IMG/VR virus record: IMGVR_UViG_3300005529_000023
Coordinates: 1-64,000 of that record
Direction: 5' to 3' (one strand)
Length of the DNA: 64,000 nucleotides
Source of the DNA: a virus
How positions within the stretch are numbered: position 1 is the first letter of the stretch; each line of letters begins with the position of its first letter. Shown here one piece after another: positions 9,208 to 48,052 of the stretch. Under the pieces are notes generated by a model. It worked only from the letters and a program-made list of their open reading frames with translations. It did not search any database and had not been told where the DNA came from. A program made the position numbers and the translations under genes.

Positions 9208-9872
9208 TGTTGATCGTATCGAAGTTCCACGATTATTACGACGTGGGCATGAAAACTGGCGTCGATAAGACGTGCGTGTACGAGCGCGAGACTCAAACTA
9301 TCGAGAGAGGTTTTCTCGCCACTACCAAGTATGCGACGGGCTGGCACGGGAGTGTACTCGCCTTTTGTGGCGAGTTCTATCCTTTCTTGTTCTACGTAGA
9401 CCATTACGAGATCACCCGCTACATCTGGACTCTAGAAGAAGCGCTTGAGCTAAATTTCCCGAAAGAGAGATGGCGTTACGGGTATTGGAACGAGTACTCT
9501 CTTTCTACTCCGCAGGGCGTCAAGAAGTTCTTTGAACAGAAGTATGAACATCTCAAAGAACTCTTTCATCAATATCGCACTCCTATTTTTGGTTTCGAAC
9601 CTGTTCTTGGCCGAAGATATTCTTGGATGAAAGACGAGAAGTACAGATCCTTGGAACTCAATCCCTGTCTTAAGAATATCCAGTTCTACAAGGTCAAAAA
9701 TCCTATTGTCGCATTTCAAGAAATTGCCATGTTCATGTCTGGTGTTATCGGCGCTCCTCCGAAGCAACTCATCGAAGTTTCTGATGAAGTGAAAGCTGCC
9801 TCTCGTGGACATGATGGGCCATACTCCTTCAGAAAACCTCCCGGCAAACGAGGAAAAAATAAGTGGCGTTAA
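9207..9872 (+). CDS. Hypothetical protein, 221 aa
   Basis: 221 residues, aromatic-rich, ending in a very basic tail (KPPGKRGKNKWR). No catalytic motif or domain recognised. It is translationally coupled to the preceding gene by a TAATG junction. It ends just before the ribonucleotide reductase gene, so it may share its transcript. Confidence 0.6.
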   Translation: MLIVSKFHDYYDVGMKTGVDKTCVYERETQTIERGFLATTKYATGWHGSVLAFCGEFYPFLFYVDHYEITRYIWTLEEALELNFPKERWRYGYWNEYSLSTPQGVKKFFEQKYEHLKELFHQYRTPIFGFEPVLGRRYSWMKDEKYRSLELNPCLKNIQFYKVKNPIVAFQEIAMFMSGVIGAPPKQLIEVSDEVKAASRGHDGPYSFRKPPGKRGKNKWR

Positions 9873-9925
9873 CGCTGCGTTTCTCTGAAAGTCCTGTGAT
9901 AGAGTAAATAAGATCGGAGAAGTTG

Positions 9926-11914
9926 ATGTTCAGGAATCCCGCCTCAGAATTCATTTACGTTCGCACGTACTCTCGTTGGCTTGATCAGTTCACCCGTAGA
10001 GAAAATTGGTTTGAAACCGTTGATCGTTACATTGCCTTTATCACCAAGCATCATGGAGAAAAAATCCCTCCTAAGGTGATTAGAAAAATTAAAAGCTATC
10101 TCACCGAGTTTGCCGTGATGCCCTCGATGAGGTTTCTGTGGGCCGCTGGCGCTCCGGCAGAACAAGATAACGTTACGATCTACAATTGCTCCTTCGCAGC
10201 AGTTGATAATCCAGATGTGTTTGCCGAAGCTCTTTACATTCTTATGTGCGGGACTGGTTTTGGTTTCTCTGTTGAGAATAAATACGTCAGCAAACTACCT
10301 GCAGTTCCAGAAGAGATTCGTCCAAGCCACGGAATCTATGAAGTGGGAGATTCCAAAGAAGGTTGGGCAGATTCGATCAAGTATTTGGTCAACTCCTTGT
10401 ATGCTGGCCAAGATCCCGACATTCGATATAACAAAGTAAGACCACAGGGTGCGCGCCTGAAGACTATGGGAGGCCGCAGTTCTGGCCCCGGTCCTTTGGC
10501 TCAGCTTCACTACTTCATCAAACAAGTTTTTCATGCGGCTCGCGGGCGTAAGCTTACTACTTTAGAGTGCCATGACATTATGTGCGAAGCTGCCTCGATC
10601 GTCGTGGTTGGCGGAGTTCGCCGAAGCAGTGAGATTTCTAACTCTGACCTAGATGATCCAGCTATGAGATCTGCTAAGAGTGGTAATTTTCCTGTTCGCC
10701 GTTACATGGCAAATAACTCTGCTGTCTATTATGTGAAGCCAGGAATGGTTACGTTCATGGAAGAATGGACTTCGCTTGTGGCCTCTAAGTCCGGTGAACG
10801 CGGAATCTTCAATCTTGAAGCGGCGCGTAAGATGGCACCCAAGAGACGCCTTGCTGAGCAAATTGCGGGAACAAATCCTTGTGCTGAGATTCAGTTGAGG
10901 AATAAAGAATTTTGTAATCTCTCTGAAATTGTAGCGAGAGAGGAAGACGACATCGATACTATGTTGGATAAGGTGGAGACTGCAGTCTGGATGGGTATCA
11001 TCCAGGCTTGTTTTACCTATTTCCCTTATCTGAGCAAGCAATGGAAGAAGAATTGTGAAGAAGAAAGACTTCTCGGAGTCTCTATTACGGGTCAATTTGA
11101 TGCTCCACACGTTTGCACTGACGAGGCTCTTAGAGCATACAAGGCAAAAGCGATCAAAGTAGCTAAAAAAGCTTCCGAGATCATGGGAATTCCTATGCCT
11201 GCAGCCATCACTTGCGTAAAACCATCGGGAACAGTGTCTCAGTTGGTCGATTCTGCTTCTGGTTTGCATCCAAGATTCGCAAAGTACTACATTCGTAGGT
11301 ACAGAATCGCTGCAGTGGACCCTCTTTTCAGGATGATCAGGGATCAAAATGTTCCTATTTCGCCAGAAAACGGAGAAAGAAAGCAGGATTACGTCAAGGC
11401 AGTGAGAATTTACGATGCCGCGATCGAGAAAAAAGAGCCAGAAGTAGAGGCGATGAAGAAAGCCAAGGCAGTTTGCCCAATTTTCGACAATAATGGCTGG
11501 TCTCCAGACAAAGTGAACACCTGGGTAGTCTCTTTTCCGGTCGAAGCTCCAAAAAATTGCATTACGACCGAAGAAGTTACCGCTTTAGAGCAGTTAGAGT
11601 GGTACAAAAAGGTTCAAAAGAACTGGTGCGAGCATAACGCGTCGATCACGGTCTACGTTAGACCCGATGAATGGCTTTCCGTTGGTGATTGGGTCTACAA
11701 AAACTGGGATATCGTCAATGGGATCTCTTTTTTGCCCGCCGAAGAGCATGTTTACGAGCAGGCGCCATACGAAAAGATTACGAAAGACAAGTATGAAGAG
11801 ATGGTCAAGAGTTTTCCTAAGATCGACTACTCTCAACTTGGTAAATACGAGATCGACGACAATACGGAAGGCGCGAAAAGCCTTGCCTGCTCCTCTGGCA
11901 ACTGCGAAGTCTAA
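9926..11914 (+). CDS. nrdJ: Class II (B12-dependent) ribonucleotide reductase
   Basis: 662 residues, similar in size to monomeric adenosylcobalamin-dependent ribonucleoside triphosphate reductases. Seen: C88 in YNCSFA, the active-site segment NPCAEI with N317, C319 and E321, C330 exactly 11 residues after C319 (the spacing of C408 and C419 in the Lactobacillus leichmannii enzyme), and a C-terminal redox pair C655/C660. It would reduce ribonucleotides to deoxyribonucleotides with or without oxygen and needs no small subunit; none is encoded nearby. ATG 9926, after GGAGAAGTTG, is preferred over TTG 9923. With ThyX, dUTPase and a deaminase it forms a dNTP supply route. Confidence 0.93.
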   Translation: MFRNPASEFIYVRTYSRWLDQFTRRENWFETVDRYIAFITKHHGEKIPPKVIRKIKSYLTEFAVMPSMRFLWAAGAPAEQDNVTIYNCSFAAVDNPDVFAEALYILMCGTGFGFSVENKYVSKLPAVPEEIRPSHGIYEVGDSKEGWADSIKYLVNSLYAGQDPDIRYNKVRPQGARLKTMGGRSSGPGPLAQLHYFIKQVFHAARGRKLTTLECHDIMCEAASIVVVGGVRRSSEISNSDLDDPAMRSAKSGNFPVRRYMANNSAVYYVKPGMVTFMEEWTSLVASKSGERGIFNLEAARKMAPKRRLAEQIAGTNPCAEIQLRNKEFCNLSEIVAREEDDIDTMLDKVETAVWMGIIQACFTYFPYLSKQWKKNCEEERLLGVSITGQFDAPHVCTDEALRAYKAKAIKVAKKASEIMGIPMPAAITCVKPSGTVSQLVDSASGLHPRFAKYYIRRYRIAAVDPLFRMIRDQNVPISPENGERKQDYVKAVRIYDAAIEKKEPEVEAMKKAKAVCPIFDNNGWSPDKVNTWVVSFPVEAPKNCITTEEVTALEQLEWYKKVQKNWCEHNASITVYVRPDEWLSVGDWVYKNWDIVNGISFLPAEEHVYEQAPYEKITKDKYEEMVKSFPKIDYSQLGKYEIDDNTEGAKSLACSSGNCEV

Positions 11915-29071: not shown

Positions 29072-30972
29072 TGGCGGATTCTAGAGCATTCGTAAAGAAG
29101 ATCGATCCCGTTGGGTCTGGAACGAACGAGCACAACTCGATTCACCAAACCAGTCCAGGATGGGTACTTACGTTCGTTCGCTGGAACGTTCGAGATACCT
29201 TCAGAACGAAGACAAACAATACTACTACGTCACCTCTCTCAGTGCGAGATCCCTTGGTTGTAGAAAACGATTGCGTTTCAGTCGCAGTAACTAATGCTAA
29301 GGGAACGCTGACTCCACAGATGAATGCTACTTTGATCATGACGGACGTGAACTATGAAACAGAGGTTGCTCCCGGCGACTTCGTGTTCGTCAACATGCTC
29401 AATTGGACTACCGGGAACAAAGTATTTAGAGGTTCTAGGCAAGTTGCCGATGCCGCAAGAGCAAGGCAGGCAATCAATGGAGTCAACGACGGCTTCAAGG
29501 GTTTGTTCAAAGTTCAATCTGTACAAAGAGTCCTAATGACCGACGCGAATACTGGTACTAGAATGGTCGCCTTTAAGATCAACGGGTACGGTTTCACTGA
29601 ATTCAATAATACGATATACTTCAATCCATATCTTCTTGATCCTCAACAAGATCCGAAGAACCAATTACTCTTCGCCAGCTTCTTCGGAGAGTTTTGGACT
29701 TCGATGGTCAATGACAAAGGTATTACGGATGTTCAGAACATCCTTGCTGTGCTTATTCAGAGTTTGATTGGAACCGGCATCGCAGAAGGACAACAAAAGC
29801 TGTATAAGAAAAACGCTGTGGCAACGCACAACACCCACTTTTTGGTACCAGAACTGGTTGGAAAACTACTTGGTTTGAACGGCGCAAAAGCAGCTAAGGA
29901 CTTATACAACTACATTTTCGGTATTCAAAATTATGCAGGCGGCAGTAGCGCTACAGATTTGGCCGTAGGAATGAATCCTGAAGGACTTCAGGAAAAGTAC
30001 AACCGCTTTTTCTACACTCAGATTCCATGTCAGGGTTCGTCTTTGCTAAAACCAGAGTACTGGAATCAGGTAAAGACGTGGTCTATCTTGAACCAGTACA
30101 CAAACGCTCCACTCAACGAGTTGTTCACATGTTTCAGGGTATCTCCCAATGGTAGCGTGATGCCTACAGTAGTGTTCAGGCAGATCCCATTTACCACTGA
30201 GGGTTTCGCAGATCAGTTCTACGGTCCAGTTCCTCCTCCAGTAACGAAGTTCCTGAACTTACCTAGGTGGAAGATCAATCCAGCTCTAATCCTAGAAATG
30301 AATATCGGCAGAGAAGAAGCCGCAAGGGTGAACTTTGTTCAGTACTTTGGCCGCTCAACTCTTGGTCAAGATGGAACTGACATCGCCGCTGAAATCGCTG
30401 CTGGAAACTACGTCTATGACGTAGATGACGTGTCTAGAAGTGGCTTGAGACCTTATATCGTCACTACTCAGTTTGACGATCCTACGTCGCAGAATAAGGA
30501 CTACAGAAGTCCTTTTTGGGCAAAGATTCTTGGAGATGCTCTTATCGGCGGACATCTGAAGCTCAATGGTAGTTTCCAGTGTGCTGGAATTCAAGATCCA
30601 GTTGCAGTTGGTGATAACTGGGAGTTTGACGGAGTCGTCTATCACATCGAACAAGTTAACCATGTAGCTAGTATTTCTCCGCAAGATGGAAAGAAGATTT
30701 TCAGAAGCACAATCGTCGTAAGCAGTGGTGTGAGCACTTCTAGCTCTGTCAATGGTGTTCGTTATCCTGAAATGGAAGACACGGTTGCTTACAGGAAGCG
30801 CGACAGAGACTTCAAGAACAATCAAATTCTTCCTGGTGTCTCAGAAGAGCAGGATGTCGTTTATAGGAAGAACGTTTGGCCAACAGATAAAGACAGTAAG
30901 AAGCAGAATGCGCCTTATGCACAACCAAACACTAAGACTGGTTCACAGACTGACAACGGAGACGATACCTAA
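29071..30972 (+). CDS. Baseplate hub-type structural protein
   Basis: 633 residues, mostly beta-like, with an N-terminal stretch (about 60-100) reminiscent of tail-hub proteins in which a phage-specific 'LTPQMNATL...D' segment precedes a beta domain. No catalytic motif. It lies between the tape-measure and the spike, the usual place of the gp27/gpD-type hub that carries the spike and joins the tube. Joined to both neighbours by TAATG junctions. Role inferred from position. Confidence 0.6.
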   Translation: MADSRAFVKKIDPVGSGTNEHNSIHQTSPGWVLTFVRWNVRDTFRTKTNNTTTSPLSVRDPLVVENDCVSVAVTNAKGTLTPQMNATLIMTDVNYETEVAPGDFVFVNMLNWTTGNKVFRGSRQVADAARARQAINGVNDGFKGLFKVQSVQRVLMTDANTGTRMVAFKINGYGFTEFNNTIYFNPYLLDPQQDPKNQLLFASFFGEFWTSMVNDKGITDVQNILAVLIQSLIGTGIAEGQQKLYKKNAVATHNTHFLVPELVGKLLGLNGAKAAKDLYNYIFGIQNYAGGSSATDLAVGMNPEGLQEKYNRFFYTQIPCQGSSLLKPEYWNQVKTWSILNQYTNAPLNELFTCFRVSPNGSVMPTVVFRQIPFTTEGFADQFYGPVPPPVTKFLNLPRWKINPALILEMNIGREEAARVNFVQYFGRSTLGQDGTDIAAEIAAGNYVYDVDDVSRSGLRPYIVTTQFDDPTSQNKDYRSPFWAKILGDALIGGHLKLNGSFQCAGIQDPVAVGDNWEFDGVVYHIEQVNHVASISPQDGKKIFRSTIVVSSGVSTSSSVNGVRYPEMEDTVAYRKRDRDFKNNQILPGVSEEQDVVYRKNVWPTDKDSKKQNAPYAQPNTKTGSQTDNGDDT

Positions 30973-31955
30973 TGGGCGTACTAGAGAACGGCTCAGTTTT
31001 ACCTCATGGTCTCTTGGGTGAGAACGATGCCGCCATGATGAGTGGTTTCAACAAGAGCTACAGAAATTTCCCTCTTCGTATCGGCGTTGTCATGGCCTCT
31101 TACCCTGTTGGCAACGATAGAAATAAGACTAGGTTGACTACTGAGTACGATGTACTGGTGTTTGAGCAAAATGAAGATAAGGGAGCAACAAGCATTCTTT
31201 ATAGGAATTGCATGTCTTCGGAAGGCATGGGTTCTATAGCTGATTATTTTGAAAAAGCTCTTCGTCCGCAGAAGAAAAAGAAAAAGAAGGGTGCTACAAA
31301 CCTGAACGGTCAGGATGGAGCTATCGTGCTACTTCTTTGTCTGGATGCTATGTCCGACAAAGCCATTATCATCAGTTCTCTCACCCATCCAGACAGAAAA
31401 ACTAACTTGAAGGATGAAGGTCCATTTCTGCAGGGCGAGTACAATGGCGTCCAGATCATAGTGAATAAGGACGGCAGTACTTCTTTGGTTTTTAAGGGTG
31501 CTACGGACAGTGAAGGTAAGCCAACCAACTCTAAGCAGGGCAACACCACTGTGAAGATTGAAAAGGACGGCAGTTTCCAGGTTGATCACGATACTATCCT
31601 TTTTAGACTGGATCGCACACAAAAGACCGCCACTTTGAATGCAAAGAAGGACATCAATGTTGTTGCGGGCGGAAACATCAACATGACCGCCACGGGAGAT
31701 GTCAATGTTAAATGTACGAATGCCAACGTCGCTGCCTCAGCTAAAGCTGTGGTTAAAAGTGGCAGCAATACTGAAGTTACAGCTGGCGGTGACTGTAAAA
31801 TTACTTCTTCTGGAAAGACCACTGTCAAAGCAAGCCAAATTGAACTCAATGGGTCGGCATCCGGCATCACCACAGAGAACTCACATCAAGGCGTAATTGA
31901 CTTCATCACTGGTGTTCCAGTTCAGGCAAGCCAAGACGTGAAATCGGACGTGTAA
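30972..31955 (+). CDS. Tail spike, gpV/gp5-like with beta-helix
   Basis: 327 residues. The N-terminal ~120 residues suit an OB-like module with a Lys-rich KKKKKKG linker near 99-105. From about residue 195 onward the sequence shows short repeats (KKDINVVAGGNINMTATGDV, then KSGSNTEVTAGGDCKITSSG), the pattern of the triple-stranded beta-helix needle in gpV, gp5 and VgrG. It would form the membrane-piercing tip. No lysozyme domain is inserted, unlike T4 gp5. Confidence 0.8.
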   Translation: MGVLENGSVLPHGLLGENDAAMMSGFNKSYRNFPLRIGVVMASYPVGNDRNKTRLTTEYDVLVFEQNEDKGATSILYRNCMSSEGMGSIADYFEKALRPQKKKKKKGATNLNGQDGAIVLLLCLDAMSDKAIIISSLTHPDRKTNLKDEGPFLQGEYNGVQIIVNKDGSTSLVFKGATDSEGKPTNSKQGNTTVKIEKDGSFQVDHDTILFRLDRTQKTATLNAKKDINVVAGGNINMTATGDVNVKCTNANVAASAKAVVKSGSNTEVTAGGDCKITSSGKTTVKASQIELNGSASGITTENSHQGVIDFITGVPVQASQDVKSDV

Positions 31956-31956
31956 G

Positions 31957-32664
31957 ATGCCAGTAAGTGGACCAGCCTTAGCAGCGCTAATTCAGAGTAA
32001 CGTAGACAGTAGAATGGCAGCCGTTAAGGGTTTTCATCCACTTGCTCAGAAGAGACCAAATTTTTTCATTGAAATGTGTACCGCACTGGGAACAGGGATC
32101 ATCTCTGGTGGCCCAACTATCTCGTTCACCACAAATGATAGCGGACAAGAGGGTGCCCCGCTTGTCCCTGGAACTGGTGCGGGAGTTGGCATCGTGACCG
32201 ATCCCTCTTTCTTCATTCAAGATGCGTATTCCAGAATTAGAGGGTTTATCCTGGCGGACTTTGGAAAAACAAGTCACCAAGCATACCCGCCAGATCACGA
32301 CAACTCTGGAGCTTTCCTTCTTGCCCTGGTCACCGGGATCAACGATGCCTTCTTGGCTTACTACCCAACTGCGTGGACCTTGGTTTCCAATCATCCTCAA
32401 ATTTACACGGGAACGGGAATGATCACCGATGGACAGTTCAGCGGACTGTCTTCTTCGGCTATTAAGTCGGCGATCATCTCTGGAGCACCAGATCTAAGAG
32501 GTAGATTTTGGCCAAGGCTCGCACAAGGTGTCGCAGAGAGTTATGTTGCTCTCATTCAACAGCATTCTACTGGACAAGTAACTATCACGGGTACTTGCGT
32601 TCCAGGCCCTTCGCAGGTTTGCGGTATCGGCGGATCTGGCAACGGCTCTGGAACAGCTACATAG
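31957..32664 (+). CDS. Baseplate/tail-associated hypothetical protein
   Basis: 235 residues, Gly/Ser/Thr-rich with a disordered Gly-Ser C-terminal tail containing two Cys (CVPGPSQVCG). It follows the spike directly (1 nt gap) and is probably a structural tail-tip component. No family recognised. Confidence 0.55.
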   Translation: MPVSGPALAALIQSNVDSRMAAVKGFHPLAQKRPNFFIEMCTALGTGIISGGPTISFTTNDSGQEGAPLVPGTGAGVGIVTDPSFFIQDAYSRIRGFILADFGKTSHQAYPPDHDNSGAFLLALVTGINDAFLAYYPTAWTLVSNHPQIYTGTGMITDGQFSGLSSSAIKSAIISGAPDLRGRFWPRLAQGVAESYVALIQQHSTGQVTITGTCVPGPSQVCGIGGSGNGSGTAT

Positions 32665-32671
32665 GAGTTTT

Positions 32672-33205
32672 ATGTCACTAAAAGAAATGGCACTTGCAAT
32701 GTATCCATATTGGTTGCTTGGGATCTTCATGATCTGGGCTACTGCTAAGTCCAAGTACAAAGAGTACATCAGGGTTGACAAAGAAGGTCTCACTCGTTGG
32801 GCGCGCTTTCTCTTTATCATCTCTATTTATCGTATGATCCTATTTAAGCTATTTCCAACTGTGTTCTCTGGGGCAGCTCATAACATAGCCCTTATTCCTT
32901 GGCCGCTCACCTTGACGGTTTTTTGGGAAGATGCTTGTCACGGCCTTCCTTTGTTATTGCTTAAAAAGGCAATCGGCCTCAAGAAGTGGGCTAAGCCCGT
33001 ACTTCGTATGATCACTCTCATGATGATGGTAGAGTTCGGGATGGGACATGTATATCAGGGTATAATTCCAGCTGTTATGCTTAGCTTCTATGTGCCTTAT
33101 TCAGTTAAACTAGGAGAGAAGTGGGGTTTTGGAACAGTGATGCTAGGTCATATGCTTTTCGATCTCACCACCATTCTTTCGGTGAAATTTCTTCTAGGTG
33201 GATAA
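32672..33205 (+). CDS. CPBP/CAAX-protease-like membrane protein
   Basis: 177 residues with about five or six transmembrane segments. In order it has WEDACHG near 88-94, EFGMGHVYQG near 119-128 and GHMLFDLTT near 161-169. These match the three motifs of CPBP intramembrane metalloproteases (E-E-x3-R, F-x3-H, H-x3-N/D), with Glu-Asp and no Arg in the first. Such proteins cleave near membranes and include bacteriocin immunity proteins. The altered motif I leaves activity uncertain. AGGAG precedes the start. Unusual inside a baseplate block. Confidence 0.55.
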   Translation: MSLKEMALAMYPYWLLGIFMIWATAKSKYKEYIRVDKEGLTRWARFLFIISIYRMILFKLFPTVFSGAAHNIALIPWPLTLTVFWEDACHGLPLLLLKKAIGLKKWAKPVLRMITLMMMVEFGMGHVYQGIIPAVMLSFYVPYSVKLGEKWGFGTVMLGHMLFDLTTILSVKFLLGG

Positions 33206-33465
33206 TGTCCAAGAAAAGCCCGTTTGTGGGATACTCTGAAGATGAAGTACTCTCTATCGAGGCCGTGACTTACGTCATAGTGGTTGGTTCAAATTTCTAT
33301 ATCAAGGATGGAAATTTCGTTTTTACCAAAAAGAGCGCTGCTTATCACTACAACAAGATCCTGAGAGAACTTGTGGGGCAGTTAGTTAATGGTGACGACG
33401 ATGAGAAAAAGAACGCGAGAAGAGTCCTAAACAACTTTAGGATCGAGCCTCTTAGGCTTCACTAG
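33205..33465 (+). CDS. Hypothetical protein, 86 aa
   Basis: 86 residues, soluble, basic C-terminus; no recognised motif. ATG 33205 is at a TAATG junction with the membrane-protease-like gene; a longer reading from 33121 starts inside that gene. Its 3' end converges with the minus-strand gene (14-nt overlap). Confidence 0.55.
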   Translation: MSKKSPFVGYSEDEVLSIEAVTYVIVVGSNFYIKDGNFVFTKKSAAYHYNKILRELVGQLVNGDDDEKKNARRVLNNFRIEPLRLH

Positions 33466-33814
33466 GATCTACGACGATCATTTTGGCGTGGGTCATAGCT
33501 AGGTAGTATTGAAGGATATACCTGTTCTTGTCGTGAAGCTGTCCCGTCTCTTTGTATAGACCTAGGATAATTCCTACGGCTTCATGAAGATCTGGAATGA
33601 AACACTGCTCTCTTGGATGCTGTTTATTTTCGCATCGTACCCTACCTTTATTGTGTTCTGAATAGACTACGTCAGCTTCTCTGTGAAGCTGGTCATTGTC
33701 GAGGTATTCAAGATACAGAATGTAATTGTCTAGGGCATCCCAGCCTCTTTCTTCGTTTTTTAGAAGATGGGATCTAACGTATGTAACCAGTTCTTTTTCT
33801 TCGTGATCCATCAT
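33452..33814 (-). CDS. Hypothetical protein of peptidase island
   Basis: 120 residues from ATG 33814 (or ATG 33811), overlapping the C39-like gene's stop. Helical, with two Cys-containing loops in the middle and an acidic C-terminus. No family recognised; the coupling suggests it works with the preceding peptidase-like protein. Confidence 0.55.
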   Translation of the reverse strand: MMDHEEKELVTYVRSHLLKNEERGWDALDNYILYLEYLDNDQLHREADVVYSEHNKGRVRCENKQHPREQCFIPDLHEAVGIILGLYKETGQLHDKNRYILQYYLAMTHAKMIVVDPSEA

Positions 33815-34263
33815 GGCTTGATTAGTTCCCTGCAGGGTAGTTCGTACACAAAGAAGTTTTTCATCCCATGTGCATAGACTTCCGCTGCCAGTTCGTTCCA
33901 AGTTTGAAGGGTGTTTTCAGGGTTCACAAGTTTGATTCTTCCTTCATGATCTGTAAAAGCCGTGACGACATGCCCAACATTTTGTCCGGTCTGTGTGTAC
34001 AAGAGGATTAGAAACTTTCCCAGCAGGAGCTTTGATTCAATATCCCCAAGACTCCTTGGCTTAACGTGTTTGGCAGGTATTTTCAATTTCTTGAGTAAAA
34101 AGGAAAATTGAAATACGTACAAACCGTGATTCCCGTATCCGCACTCTCGTGCCGCTTTTTCTACTTCTTTATAGGTCTTCTTGAGGTTGCACCAAGAAGC
34201 GGCGTTGTAGGCTGCGACGACTGCACAGTCTGTCTGAGTCTTGTTTTTCTTAAGGATTTTCAC
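33811..34263 (-). CDS. C39-like cysteine peptidase
   Basis: 150 residues from GTG 34263. Near the N-terminus QTDCAVVAAYNA (about 9-20) matches the Q...DC-xxxA active-site helix of peptidase C39-like proteins. GHVVTAFTDHEGRIKLVNPEN (His near 98, Asn near 117) fits the second half of the site. C39 peptidases cut double-glycine leader peptides or polyubiquitin-like targets. No signal peptide is seen, so it would act in the cytoplasm or on the virion. The GTG lies 6 nt after a TATTCT -10 box, implying a leaderless transcript. Confidence 0.65.
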   Translation of the reverse strand: MKILKKNKTQTDCAVVAAYNAASWCNLKKTYKEVEKAARECGYGNHGLYVFQFSFLLKKLKIPAKHVKPRSLGDIESKLLLGKFLILLYTQTGQNVGHVVTAFTDHEGRIKLVNPENTLQTWNELAAEVYAHGMKNFFVYELPCRELIKP

Positions 34264-34269
34264 TATTCT

Positions 34270-34298
34270 AGAATAGCGAAATAAGGAAAATAAGTCAA
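34270..34298 (-). promoter_or_regulatory. Sigma70-like promoter, minus strand
   Basis: On the minus strand TTGACT (34298-34293), 17-nt spacer, TATTCT (34275-34270), 6 nt before GTG 34263. One of the best consensus matches in the window. Confidence 0.65.
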
Positions 34299-34850
34299 TT
34301 ACCAAGGATCGCAGCGATTGAACATTTCAGAAACGTATTCGCTGTAATGGGTTGCGACACAATCGTCATCGACCAGAACTGGATACATGAGACTCACCGG
34401 ACATCCGTCGTCCCAATATCCCGGCCTTGGACCGCCGTTGAGAGTCCATTGAACGGCCTGCGTGATCCTATCGGCCTCTTTCTCGGGATACATAGCTCCC
34501 TCGCCGTAATCATGGGCGCGCCCGCAATAGCAGTGGGTAAGTTCGTGAAAGACAAGGGTGTATTTGCTTCTCTCGGTGGCGTGACTCCAGAAGTCTTGGT
34601 CTATATCGACTTCTCTGAAGAAACCTCCATTAATACAAAGACCTATAGTGTCACCTTGATCGATTTTCTTGAATCCTAAAGTTACTTTCTTGTCAAAATG
34701 TATGTGATTATAATTACTTAGCCACAGATATTCTTCTACGTACTTAGAGGCGCGAGGATCTACGTCCTTATACTCTGGGTGGAGTCCTGGCTGACCACAA
34801 GATAAGGAAACTAGTAAAATAGCGATAATACCGAGAAAAGACCTTCTCAT
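34299..34850 (-). CDS. Lipoprotein metzincin-like metallopeptidase
   Basis: 183 residues from ATG 34850. The signal MRRSFLGIIAILLVSLSC ends in a lipobox, with acylation at C18. HELTHCYCGRAH near 98-109 is an HExxH zinc motif with a third His seven residues on, and SLMYP near 153-157 fits the Met-turn of metzincins. Together these indicate a membrane-anchored zinc peptidase facing the periplasm or outside. ATG 34910 would bury the signal peptide and is rejected. Target unknown; superinfection exclusion or envelope remodelling are possible. Confidence 0.7.
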   Translation of the reverse strand: MRRSFLGIIAILLVSLSCGQPGLHPEYKDVDPRASKYVEEYLWLSNYNHIHFDKKVTLGFKKIDQGDTIGLCINGGFFREVDIDQDFWSHATERSKYTLVFHELTHCYCGRAHDYGEGAMYPEKEADRITQAVQWTLNGGPRPGYWDDGCPVSLMYPVLVDDDCVATHYSEYVSEMFNRCDPW

Positions 34851-34893: not shown

Positions 34894-37512
34894 ATGGGCT
34901 TATTTGACAATCCATCCTCAATCGCTAGCGATGCCGCTAATCAGATCAAGAGCACAACCGATGGTTTGGTTGATAGCGCTCTAGGAGCCATTGGGCTGAA
35001 GCAAAAGAACTCCATCAAGGGTCAAGGCGGTGCTGCCCCTTGGTCGAACCTCAGTAGCCCATTCTTCAAGTACATCACGATTAAGCCTGATAAATGGGAT
35101 CAGCTATTCCCATATCGTTTACTTGTCGTAGATACTATCAAGAACGTGGTTGTGAACGGCACAACTACGACTAGCATCACCGTCACAGGTGGGAGCGACA
35201 ATGCGATCGTGAACTTCGAGCCTCTTGGCAGGCAGTGGATCTTCACTCTTCCCATTAGTCCTCAGCAATTGAGCATCACAGATCAGTATGCAATCAACAC
35301 CACAGCTACCCTTCGTGGCGTGCTGGAAGAGCACGGTGGCGTGAAGTTCAAGATGATTGCTGCAACCGGCACAATGGGTGTCTGGCCCTATCGTACTAGT
35401 GTAACCTCTCCTCCAAAGAGTCCTACGATCCTGCAATCGTTGTTTGGCGGCACTATCGAAGCCTTTGGAAATTTGGTTAACCAGGCACAGAAGGTCATCA
35501 ATACCGCCACTGGAAACCATCCTGCAAATAAACCTATTACAAAGCGTCCAGAGGTCTCCGATGCAGGCGCGAACAGTACTGGTTATTACCATGCCATGGC
35601 TCTACATCAGTTCTTGGAGCAGTACGCTGAGGCAAAGAAAGATCCTGCGAATGCCGGATGGCGCCTAGTCTTCGACATTCCAAAGCAGAACACTTCCTAT
35701 GTGGTCACTCCAGTTCAGTATATCTGGAACCAGAATGCGAATAAGCCAATGGAGATCATGTACTCCTTCCAGCTCAAGGCTTGGAGGCGTATTGATCTTC
35801 AGGAGAAGGTTTCTCCAACCGTTCCTTCTATTCAGCCCATCAGCCCAGGAATCCTACAAAGGATTATGAATACGATCAGTGCGGCTAGACAGACTACCAG
35901 CGCTGCGACTAGTTTGATTGGAGCAGTTCGTTCGGATGTCGAGACTCCTCTTGATGTTTTACGCCAAACTTCGCTTTTAGTGAAGGATTTGGCGGGTGTC
36001 GCTGTTACGGCGGCAGACTTGCCATTCCAGCTGCAGCGTGACTACGCAAGCTCTATCGCTGCTTCCATGGCTATTTTGGCTAGTTCGATTTCTAGCAGCA
36101 ACTCTGATCCTACAGACAGAGCAAATTTGAATGCGATTGTAGCAGCCCAAAATAAAAATGAAGGTCTTTCGCTGAGCAATGTGGCTGGCGGCCAGCTTGG
36201 AGTGTCTGCAGCGCAGGCTCAATCCGTAGATCCATCGAATAACATCTTCTCAAATCCAGCCAATAACTTCACTTTGATGGACTCCGTTCCCGTTACTAGC
36301 TTAACTCTCAATGCTGCCCAGCAAAATGCGGTAGATCAAGCGATTCAGGCCGCACGTTCTCTTACGGTGGACGATCTAAAGCAGTATAGGGCTACGATCC
36401 AAACTCTAGCACTTCAACTTTCCAATAGTTTCGGAACCGGAGCTGCTTTTTACAGCAAGGTTTACAATACACCAGCTCCAACTACCAGAATTCAGCCTAT
36501 CACTCTTGATGAGTACGATATTTTGAAGTCTTTGTATGACGTAATGCAATCCTATGACATTCTAACCGCTACTACTCAGGTCGATGATGCTAATAAGCAG
36601 ACCAATATGGAATATGTAGCTGGTCTAGCGGACGCTTCTGGTATTCAGTTCAGCATTCCAAACAGTAAAGTTCTAGCCCCAGTTCCTTTTGGACTTTCAA
36701 TTGAGGGTATAGCACTTCGCTATTTAGGTGACGCTCAGCGTTGGCTTGAGATTGCCACCTTGAACAACCTCAGAGATCCGTACATTGATGAGGATGGGTT
36801 CCAGCTAACCTTGCTATCCAATGCATCTGGTCGCCAAATTACGATTTCAGACATCACAAATCTGTACATTGGTCAGCGTGTTCTTCTCGAAAGTAGCACT
36901 CAGGTTCCATCTGCTAGAGTAATTCTTGGTATCGACCGTCTTTCGGATACCAGCTTCCTCATTACTTTGGATGGCGCTCCAAATCTAGATAATTTTGTCA
37001 CCGCCGATGGCGCTTATCTTCAGGCTTATCTTCCGGGAACGGTGAACAGCCAACAGAAAATCTTCATTCCAAGTGATCAGGCAGTTCCAAATGATCCGAA
37101 CATTGTAGTTCCTTCTTCAACTTCCAACGATCCTCTTACCGGGCTCAGCAAAGTTGACTGGCTTTTGACCGATTCTGGCGATTTGGCCGTAAATAGCTTC
37201 GGAGACTTCCGTTACTCCAGTGGAATTACCAATATTATTCAAGCTTTAAAGCTAAAAGTAGGTACTCAGAAGGGTACAATACTGACCCACCCTGAATTTG
37301 GTCTCGGAATTCGTTCAGGGATCATGAATTCTGATTTTTCAGTCCAGGATTTGTACAATTCCATCACTAAATTGCTCGAAGAAGATCCAAGATTTCAAGG
37401 ACTTGACACTTTGCAGGTCAGTTTGAATGGTCCTACTTTGAATATCAACATGGGCGTCATTCTTGCGGGCCAACAGGGCGTATTTCCTGTAAATTTCAAT
37501 CTCACGACCTGA
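34894..37512 (+). CDS. Baseplate protein: LysM plus gp25-like fusion
   Basis: 872 residues. The N-terminal ~300 residues look like a tail-hub/baseplate domain with beta content (QWIFTLPISPQQLSI near 109-123). A helical middle follows. Around 595-640 the segment 'GLSIEGIALRYLGDAQRWLEI' plus 'LNNLRDPYI' is LysM-like (gp53/gpX type). The last ~115 residues (GDL...SG..NIIQALKLKVGTQKG...HPEFGLGI) match gp25-like baseplate wedge proteins. In many myoviruses these are separate genes. It begins after a CAATCTTA element. Confidence 0.8.
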   Translation: MGLFDNPSSIASDAANQIKSTTDGLVDSALGAIGLKQKNSIKGQGGAAPWSNLSSPFFKYITIKPDKWDQLFPYRLLVVDTIKNVVVNGTTTTSITVTGGSDNAIVNFEPLGRQWIFTLPISPQQLSITDQYAINTTATLRGVLEEHGGVKFKMIAATGTMGVWPYRTSVTSPPKSPTILQSLFGGTIEAFGNLVNQAQKVINTATGNHPANKPITKRPEVSDAGANSTGYYHAMALHQFLEQYAEAKKDPANAGWRLVFDIPKQNTSYVVTPVQYIWNQNANKPMEIMYSFQLKAWRRIDLQEKVSPTVPSIQPISPGILQRIMNTISAARQTTSAATSLIGAVRSDVETPLDVLRQTSLLVKDLAGVAVTAADLPFQLQRDYASSIAASMAILASSISSSNSDPTDRANLNAIVAAQNKNEGLSLSNVAGGQLGVSAAQAQSVDPSNNIFSNPANNFTLMDSVPVTSLTLNAAQQNAVDQAIQAARSLTVDDLKQYRATIQTLALQLSNSFGTGAAFYSKVYNTPAPTTRIQPITLDEYDILKSLYDVMQSYDILTATTQVDDANKQTNMEYVAGLADASGIQFSIPNSKVLAPVPFGLSIEGIALRYLGDAQRWLEIATLNNLRDPYIDEDGFQLTLLSNASGRQITISDITNLYIGQRVLLESSTQVPSARVILGIDRLSDTSFLITLDGAPNLDNFVTADGAYLQAYLPGTVNSQQKIFIPSDQAVPNDPNIVVPSSTSNDPLTGLSKVDWLLTDSGDLAVNSFGDFRYSSGITNIIQALKLKVGTQKGTILTHPEFGLGIRSGIMNSDFSVQDLYNSITKLLEEDPRFQGLDTLQVSLNGPTLNINMGVILAGQQGVFPVNFNLTT

Positions 37513-47473: not shown

Positions 47474-47615
47474 CTATACCTGTACCTAAGAAGAAATACA
47501 TGATGGCTATCGAAAGATAGATCACGCCAATACTGGCTTCGCCCGCATAGAACTCAAGCGTAGCGCTGAATACCCATATACCTGAGGCTATGTTCCAAAG
47601 CGTTCTTTGCTTCAT
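47460..47615 (-). CDS. Small two-span membrane protein
   Basis: 51 residues from ATG 47615, in an ATGA overlap with the transglycosylase stop; it overlaps the exonuclease start by 14 nt. Two hydrophobic segments (about 8-19 and 28-44) make it a holin candidate, since it follows the lysin gene directly. No experimental or family support. Confidence 0.5.
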   Translation of the reverse strand: MKQRTLWNIASGIWVFSATLEFYAGEASIGVIYLSIAIMYFFLGTGIDEHN

Positions 47616-48052
47616 TTTTCAGCCAATTCATTTCTACAAGATAGTTTGTCCTGTAAGTTCTCTGCTAGATACTTCTGTACTCTTCGAACGTATTTGAGGT
47701 TGCGTGGATAGCCTGGGAATCTCTTGCTCTCGTTGAAAGAGCCGGCATTGTACGCAGCGGTCAACTTGCACCAGTCTTCTTCGCCATATCTCGATACTTG
47801 ATATGCGAGATATCTTGCGGCCCATTTAGCATTCGTGACTGGATTCATCAGTTCCAGGGTCTTGCCCTTGAATCCTAACATCCTGGCTGTGCCCTCTTTG
47901 ACATGGCAAATTCCATAGCTTGGGGAGCCGCCGTCCACTTTATTGATCTGGACAGTAAAACCATTACTTTCGTAGGAACAAATTGCAAAAAGTAGCGTAC
48001 CAGACACCTTCGCGATTTTGGCAGCTTTCATAATGACGGAAAGATAATACAT
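47612..48052 (-). CDS. SLT-type lytic transglycosylase
   Basis: 146 residues. CSYESNGF near 25-32 carries the catalytic Glu (E28). SYGICHVK near 45-52, the NPVTNAKWAARYLAYQ segment near 70-85 and TAAYNAG near 98-104 complete the SLT/lysozyme-like fold. It would cleave peptidoglycan, either as endolysin or as a virion-associated enzyme. The N-terminus is mildly hydrophobic but not a clean signal peptide. GGAGG before ATG 48052 sets the start. A small membrane gene follows, as in lysis cassettes. Confidence 0.85.
   Translation of the reverse strand: MYYLSVIMKAAKIAKVSGTLLFAICSYESNGFTVQINKVDGGSPSYGICHVKEGTARMLGFKGKTLELMNPVTNAKWAARYLAYQVSRYGEEDWCKLTAAYNAGSFNESKRFPGYPRNLKYVRRVQKYLAENLQDKLSCRNELAEK

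Follow-up and report, generated by a model that had tools for sequence, protein, structure and literature searches.

In a family of large myophages that are uncultured, we found, between two tail genes, an old accessory locus that has occupied one place through most of the family's history, keeps its genes in fixed orientations, and loses them singly. In the window analyzed here, a stretch of 64,000 nucleotides that comprises bases 1 to 64000 of a 176,870-bp virus record, this locus holds five genes (here A to E), three of which encode peptidase-like proteins of unrelated fold. We tentatively favor the reading that two of these proteins, A and E, perhaps together with the third, D, act independently of one another to remodel the host envelope during infection, with hindered re-infection as the most likely benefit. 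Each of these enzyme types is known singly; such a set between two tail genes seems to be undescribed.

Layout and genomic setting of the locus

The left border of the slot is a gene for a spike/baseplate assembly protein (positions 30972 to 31955, plus strand; phrog_9992, 7.9e-8), which is followed directly before A by a gene for a spike-adjacent protein found in some relatives (31957 to 32664, plus strand). The right border is a baseplate protein gene (34894 to 37512, plus strand; phrog_975, 1.4e-19). Within the slot, A (32672 to 33205, plus strand) encodes a predicted multi-helix membrane protein of 177 amino acids (aa) that resembles CPBP/Rce1-like, glutamic-type intramembrane proteases, and its stop codon overlaps the start of B (33205 to 33465, plus strand), which encodes a small soluble protein of 86 aa. 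Three minus-strand genes overlap likewise: E (34299 to 34850, 183 aa), which encodes a lipoprotein, as judged by its lipobox, with a zinc-peptidase motif; D (33811 to 34305, 164 aa, TTG start), which encodes a predicted papain-fold cysteine peptidase of C39-like type; and C (33452 to 33814, 120 aa), which encodes a small protein with two conserved cysteines. B and C converge, with overlapping 3' ends, and E diverges from the baseplate gene across 43 bp. These gene couplings recur in relatives.

A sequence-only reading had placed three peptidase-like genes and two small unknowns between baseplate gene groups, and all five open reading frames are indeed found there. The same reading gave the block its own promoters, which we could not distinguish from chance: the locus has 4 promoter-like sites against 5.1 expected in shuffles, and promoter- and terminator-like sites lie at or below the chance level.

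The slot appears insertion-prone: around these baseplate genes, relatives have insertions of endonuclease-like genes, judged by eye to be of homing or HNH type (L011:6582-7397; L020:6978-7805 and 9312-10148; L003:12689-13696). One subset of relatives also has a gene of 390 to 465 aa, perhaps structural, between B and C/E (L008:7910-9244, L009:8800-10197, L012:5993-7174).

When we searched a phage collection with the baseplate and hub proteins of the window, the one near full-length match was Myxococcus phage Mx1, at 31% identity. Direct searches of this collection with A, D, and E gave no matches, which leaves Mx1 as the sole distant relative among isolated phages, by way of its tail genes. 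Mx1 does not carry A. It has a cluster with NAD-synthesis genes (nicotinamide phosphoribosyltransferase and adenylyltransferase; 16355 to 22462 in L002) between two baseplate genes, which suggests that cargo is more generally placed at such sites. Uncultured relatives of the baseplate and hub proteins are numerous in IMG/VR. The contigs of two such relatives were binned into a Deltaproteobacteria genome and a Saprospiraceae genome, and both of these lineages are diderm.

Three peptidase-like proteins of unrelated fold

The Pfam search with A from the window returned no peptidase match, and its assignment comes through its family. Among the relatives of A, 16 of 27 match PF02517 (Rce1-like), with a best value of 1.8e-6, and one of them (L037) scores 23.7 bits against a cut-off of 22.4. 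For two relatives, NCBIfam gave a weak match to the sortase-like protease MrtJ (0.029). Alignment of the A family to five CPBP proteins with hhalign placed their FxxxH and HxxxN motifs in register (E value, 0.004). The model of A is confident and all-helical (pLDDT 87.6), but a Foldseek search returned no fold match in PDB or BFVD, so that the class of A rests on sequence motifs.

The predicted catalytic residues of A are E86 and D87, H126 (of FxxxH), and H160 and D164 (of HxxxD); these, together with F122, are invariant in all 47 nonredundant family members. Like the CPBP/Rce1-like proteases (PF02517; Rce1, the myxosortase MrtX, MroQ), A presents a glutamate, FxxxH, and HxxxN/D in that order in transmembrane helices, and the order and the FxxxH/HxxxD spacing are those of myxosortase and MmRce1 (PMC11980579). 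A differs from these proteases in the first motif, EExxxR, where the second acid is an aspartate and no arginine stands at +5, and in the last, HxxxN, where Asp164 replaces the asparagine in 47/47 members. It also differs in its near-invariant FxxGHxYQG, in its family length of 160 to 195 aa, and in its setting in a phage tail operon. CPBP proteins are known to act on bacterial envelope proteins, as myxosortase does when it trims MYXO-CTERM proteins (PMC11980579). Our search for CTERM-type tails or substrates in the phage found none, a further difference from the known enzymes, and we therefore rejected A as a sortase for CTERM proteins of the phage itself. A literature search, partial in coverage, brought up no account of a CPBP protease in a phage; within that coverage, the use of intramembrane glutamic proteases by phages appears to be undescribed.

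E carries the zinc-peptidase motif HELTHCYCGRAH and a Met-turn-like CPVSLMYP. It matches the Pfam family PF18894 (PhageMetallopep) at 24.3 bits, above the gathering cut-off of 23.7; 9 of 10 relatives match the family at E values up to 1. HExxH is kept in all 58 relatives of E, and the SxM pattern around the Met-turn-like Met155 is seen, at the level of sequence, in 54 of them. After an N-terminal hydrophobic stretch, E has the lipobox LVSLSC at about residue 18; by pattern, a lipobox without aspartate at +2 is present in at least 38 of the 58 relatives. E thus resembles PhageMetallopep and matrixin/metzincin-like lipoproteins in its HExxHC, its SxM, and its export signal. It departs from these in six mostly conserved cysteines and in its third histidine (aspartate in some relatives), which lies at +7 rather than +6, one residue beyond its position in HExxHxxGxxH, in an HExxHx6H arrangement that has no glycine. 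For this reason we would not file E as a metzincin, although SxM is present.

D has Cys27, His112, and Asn128, which are conserved in all three phages that carry it. Foldseek comparison of its AlphaFold model (pLDDT 77) with the PDB returned the peptidase of PCAT1 (7.3e-4), ComA (1e-3), and YopQ (5.5e-6). D from the window has no match in Pfam or NCBIfam, including the C39 family HMM, and one relative weakly matches ACTMAP-like_C (0.0054). We saw no signal peptide in D. In its predicted fold and its Cys-His-Asn order, D is like the C39 peptidase domains of PCAT1 and ComA and like papain-like toxins (YopQ, CDI toxin). Unlike C39 domains, it stands alone, without an ABC transporter, and has an asparagine at the oxyanion position, where the C39 motif has glutamine. 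We therefore describe D as C39-like and do not file it as C39: its modeled fold and its Cys-His-Asp/Asn order fit that family, and the family HMM does not.

Peptidase assignments thus find support for all three proteins. The sequence-only reading had called A a CPBP-like membrane protease, which holds through the family of A, and D a C39-like cysteine peptidase, which its predicted fold supports; for E, lipobox and peptidase stand, and the metzincin-like label is inexact because of the shifted third histidine. B and C matched no family in Pfam, PHROG, or NCBIfam, and B ends in a conserved C-terminal P-L/F/M-R-x-H/Q/N. Searches of PDB sequences gave nothing credible. These assignments bring annotation to families of hitherto nameless genes.

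Inheritance and loss across related phages

Our earliest relatives were collected by way of A or E, which biased the sample towards carriers of these genes. We therefore sampled through structural genes: the baseplate and hub proteins as queries gave 110 intact loci, which form 56 clusters at 90% baseplate identity. Across these 56 clusters, A is present in 35, B in 39, C in 23, D in 3, and E in 43; 6 clusters have none of the five. Gene order and orientation are fixed throughout, with the exception of one C. In 4 of 5 rows of the outgroup, the spike and baseplate genes abut (4 to 24 bp apart), which represents the empty site. The block had been proposed as an accessory island, with variability between related phages as the check, and the comparison of loci found it variable.

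The fewest changes needed on the baseplate tree are 10 for A, 4 for B, 7 for C, 3 for D, and 7 for E. A correlates in distance with the baseplate protein (0.786) as closely as the hub protein does (0.792), which argues that A has long been inherited vertically; we therefore rejected a recent mobile insertion of A. C follows the hub only loosely (0.06), and D has a scattered distribution; both genes may move more. Taken together, these comparisons of sequence indicate that the family has had A, B, and E since early in its history, inherited them vertically, and lost them repeatedly.

Some members of the family retain B, C, and E but have no A anywhere in the genome, and A is likewise lacking where hub, spike, and baseplate genes are normal. 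In L077, for example, nothing takes its place and the flanking genes lie 8 bp apart. These losses from otherwise complete loci and genomes indicate that A is not needed for the virion, and they led us to reject the possibility that it is a structural component conserved in all relatives. E is missing from 13 of the 56 clusters and, where whole genomes were searched, from 2 of 16 records. Loss of this kind, gene by gene at one place, allows carriers of A or E to be compared cleanly with phages that lack them in studies of how phages modify host envelopes by proteolysis.

Possible roles during infection

In the reading that we favor, A would act in the inner membrane and cut membrane-anchored host proteins, E would be anchored in the envelope, probably in the outer membrane on its periplasmic side, and cut exported or periplasmic proteins, and D would act in the cytoplasm. 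The placement of E in the outer membrane follows rules drawn from Enterobacteria, which weakens the case. Hindrance of re-infection by other phages or the same phage would be the likeliest benefit, followed by help with exit from the cell. A and E are dispensable, yet every predicted catalytic residue is kept, which suggests that there are conditions in which they benefit the phage. Bacterial precedents for CPBP proteins directed at the envelope, myxosortase (PMC11980579) and LnsB (PMC7387801), count in favor of this reading, as does the invariance of these residues over highly diverged relatives, whose median identity is 27% in the A family and 30% in the E family. The same conservation (47/47 for the residues of A, 58/58 for HExxH of E, at about 30% identity) refutes for A and E the notion that the genes are relics, neutral passengers kept by chance beside essential genes. 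Their frequent loss would fit such a notion, and C and D fall outside the argument from residues; for the block, we regard it as barely credible.

Phage exclusion proteins located in the envelope are known, among them Spackle and Imm of T4 and Llp of T5, a lipoprotein and the nearest parallel to E. None of these is a protease. An exclusion mechanism based on proteolysis, if true, is not described in the literature that we searched. Exclusion genes are often expressed early, and the orientation of A, in the same direction as late tail genes, argues against such a role. A more specific proposal, which we find doubtful, makes A the founding member of a branch of glutamic intramembrane proteases peculiar to phages; A and the lipoprotein peptidase E would together reshape the host envelope and exclude other phages by proteolysis.

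The proteins may instead help with lysis and exit, although we consider this unlikely. An outer-membrane-anchored E would weaken the links between outer membrane and wall late in infection, spanin-like in effect, while A would remove or activate membrane proteins at that time. The lipobox of E without aspartate at +2, the place of A in a late tail operon, and a transglycosylase gene 13 kb away on the strand of E (47612 to 48052 in the window) are consistent with this model. It is set back by the presence elsewhere in the genome of other lytic enzymes, which also include an endolysin-like peptidase (genome positions 117787 to 118236) and which make the exit model less likely without removing it. 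Genes for small membrane proteins and lipoproteins clustered at genome positions 150915 to 152743 (minus strand), holin/spanin-like by eye and with no PHROG function match, resemble a lysis cassette and weigh in the same direction, as do the divergence of E from the late genes and its absences from clusters and whole genomes. The fixed place of A beside the spike is also compatible with a tail-related role: in all 35 A-bearing clusters, A lies within the spike-baseplate interval on the strand of the spike, usually straight after the spike gene or its small downstream gene. A at the inner membrane would then trim the spike or a tip protein, or anchor hub assembly, and the T4 spike gp5 is indeed cut during maturation (PMC3004832). 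Against a strict role in spike assembly stand the genomes in which A is absent, nothing obvious replaces it, and the hub, spike, and baseplate genes are normal, together with about ten independent changes of A; we judge maturation of the spike or hub to be quite improbable.

A single dedicated system of all three peptidases, directed against phages or of bacteriocin type, is, in our estimation, very unlikely. In its favor are the adjacency of the genes, the overlaps of E, D, and C, the occurrence of CPBP and C39 proteins in bacteriocin loci, and a precedent in Staphylococcus aureus, where LnsB and the papain-like LnsA jointly act on lipoproteins (PMC7387801). This CPBP-like and papain-like pair recalls A and D with the lipoprotein E. 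LnsB, however, lacks the CPBP catalytic residues, which are retained in A; LnsA has a signal peptide and is a permuted NlpC/P60 enzyme, neither of which applies to D, and D is missing from 53 of the 56 clusters. All three peptidases occur together in 3/56 clusters and all five genes in 2/56, among many other combinations. The idea of bacteriocin processing and immunity as a joint system is rejected on the rarity of D (3/56), the lack of a transporter-linked C39 domain, and a PADLOC search in which no model matched A to E or their relatives. What stands of the proposed proteolysis or exclusion island is an accessory block with three peptidase-like proteins; a joint system is not supported.

Both A without E and E without A occur (30 clusters with both, 5 with A only, 13 with E only, and 8 with neither; P = 0.05, with relatedness ignored), and phylogenetically independent pairs, which have little power, show no link between them. 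The independent gain and loss of A, E, and B argues for separate functions, and from these sequence patterns we infer that the peptidases are separate, envelope-directed proteases and not one obligate system. We grouped the genes of 14 near-complete genomes into 361 families, and no family other than A has its presence pattern; the nearest others are present in 7 of 9 A-bearing genomes and 0 of 5 A-less ones. With about four independent losses among the latter, such a sample has little power to reveal partial associations. The phages thus show no encoded partner or substrate that matches A exactly, which points to a host protein or a core phage protein as the target. A 193-aa family (143608 to 144189 in G001, minus strand, and relatives) shows the reverse distribution, in 5/5 A-less genomes and 1/9 with A, which may reflect relatedness only.

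Several other genes of the phage came to our attention. A secreted subtilisin-like protease, a further exported protease, is encoded at genome positions 75708 to 76478 on the minus strand (L046:11708-12478; phrog_3677, protease, 9e-20). A ClpP/head-maturation-protease-like protein (91384 to 92262, minus strand; L047:7384-8262) has an N-terminal hydrophobic signal-like stretch, which would be unusual for a capsid protease. A second papain-like-looking protein, unlike D, lies at 105976 to 106410 on the plus strand (L048:1976-2410; phrog_3754, unknown function, 1.4e-15), and a GroEL-like chaperonin of 590 aa, recognized by eye, is encoded at 97519 to 99291 on the plus strand.
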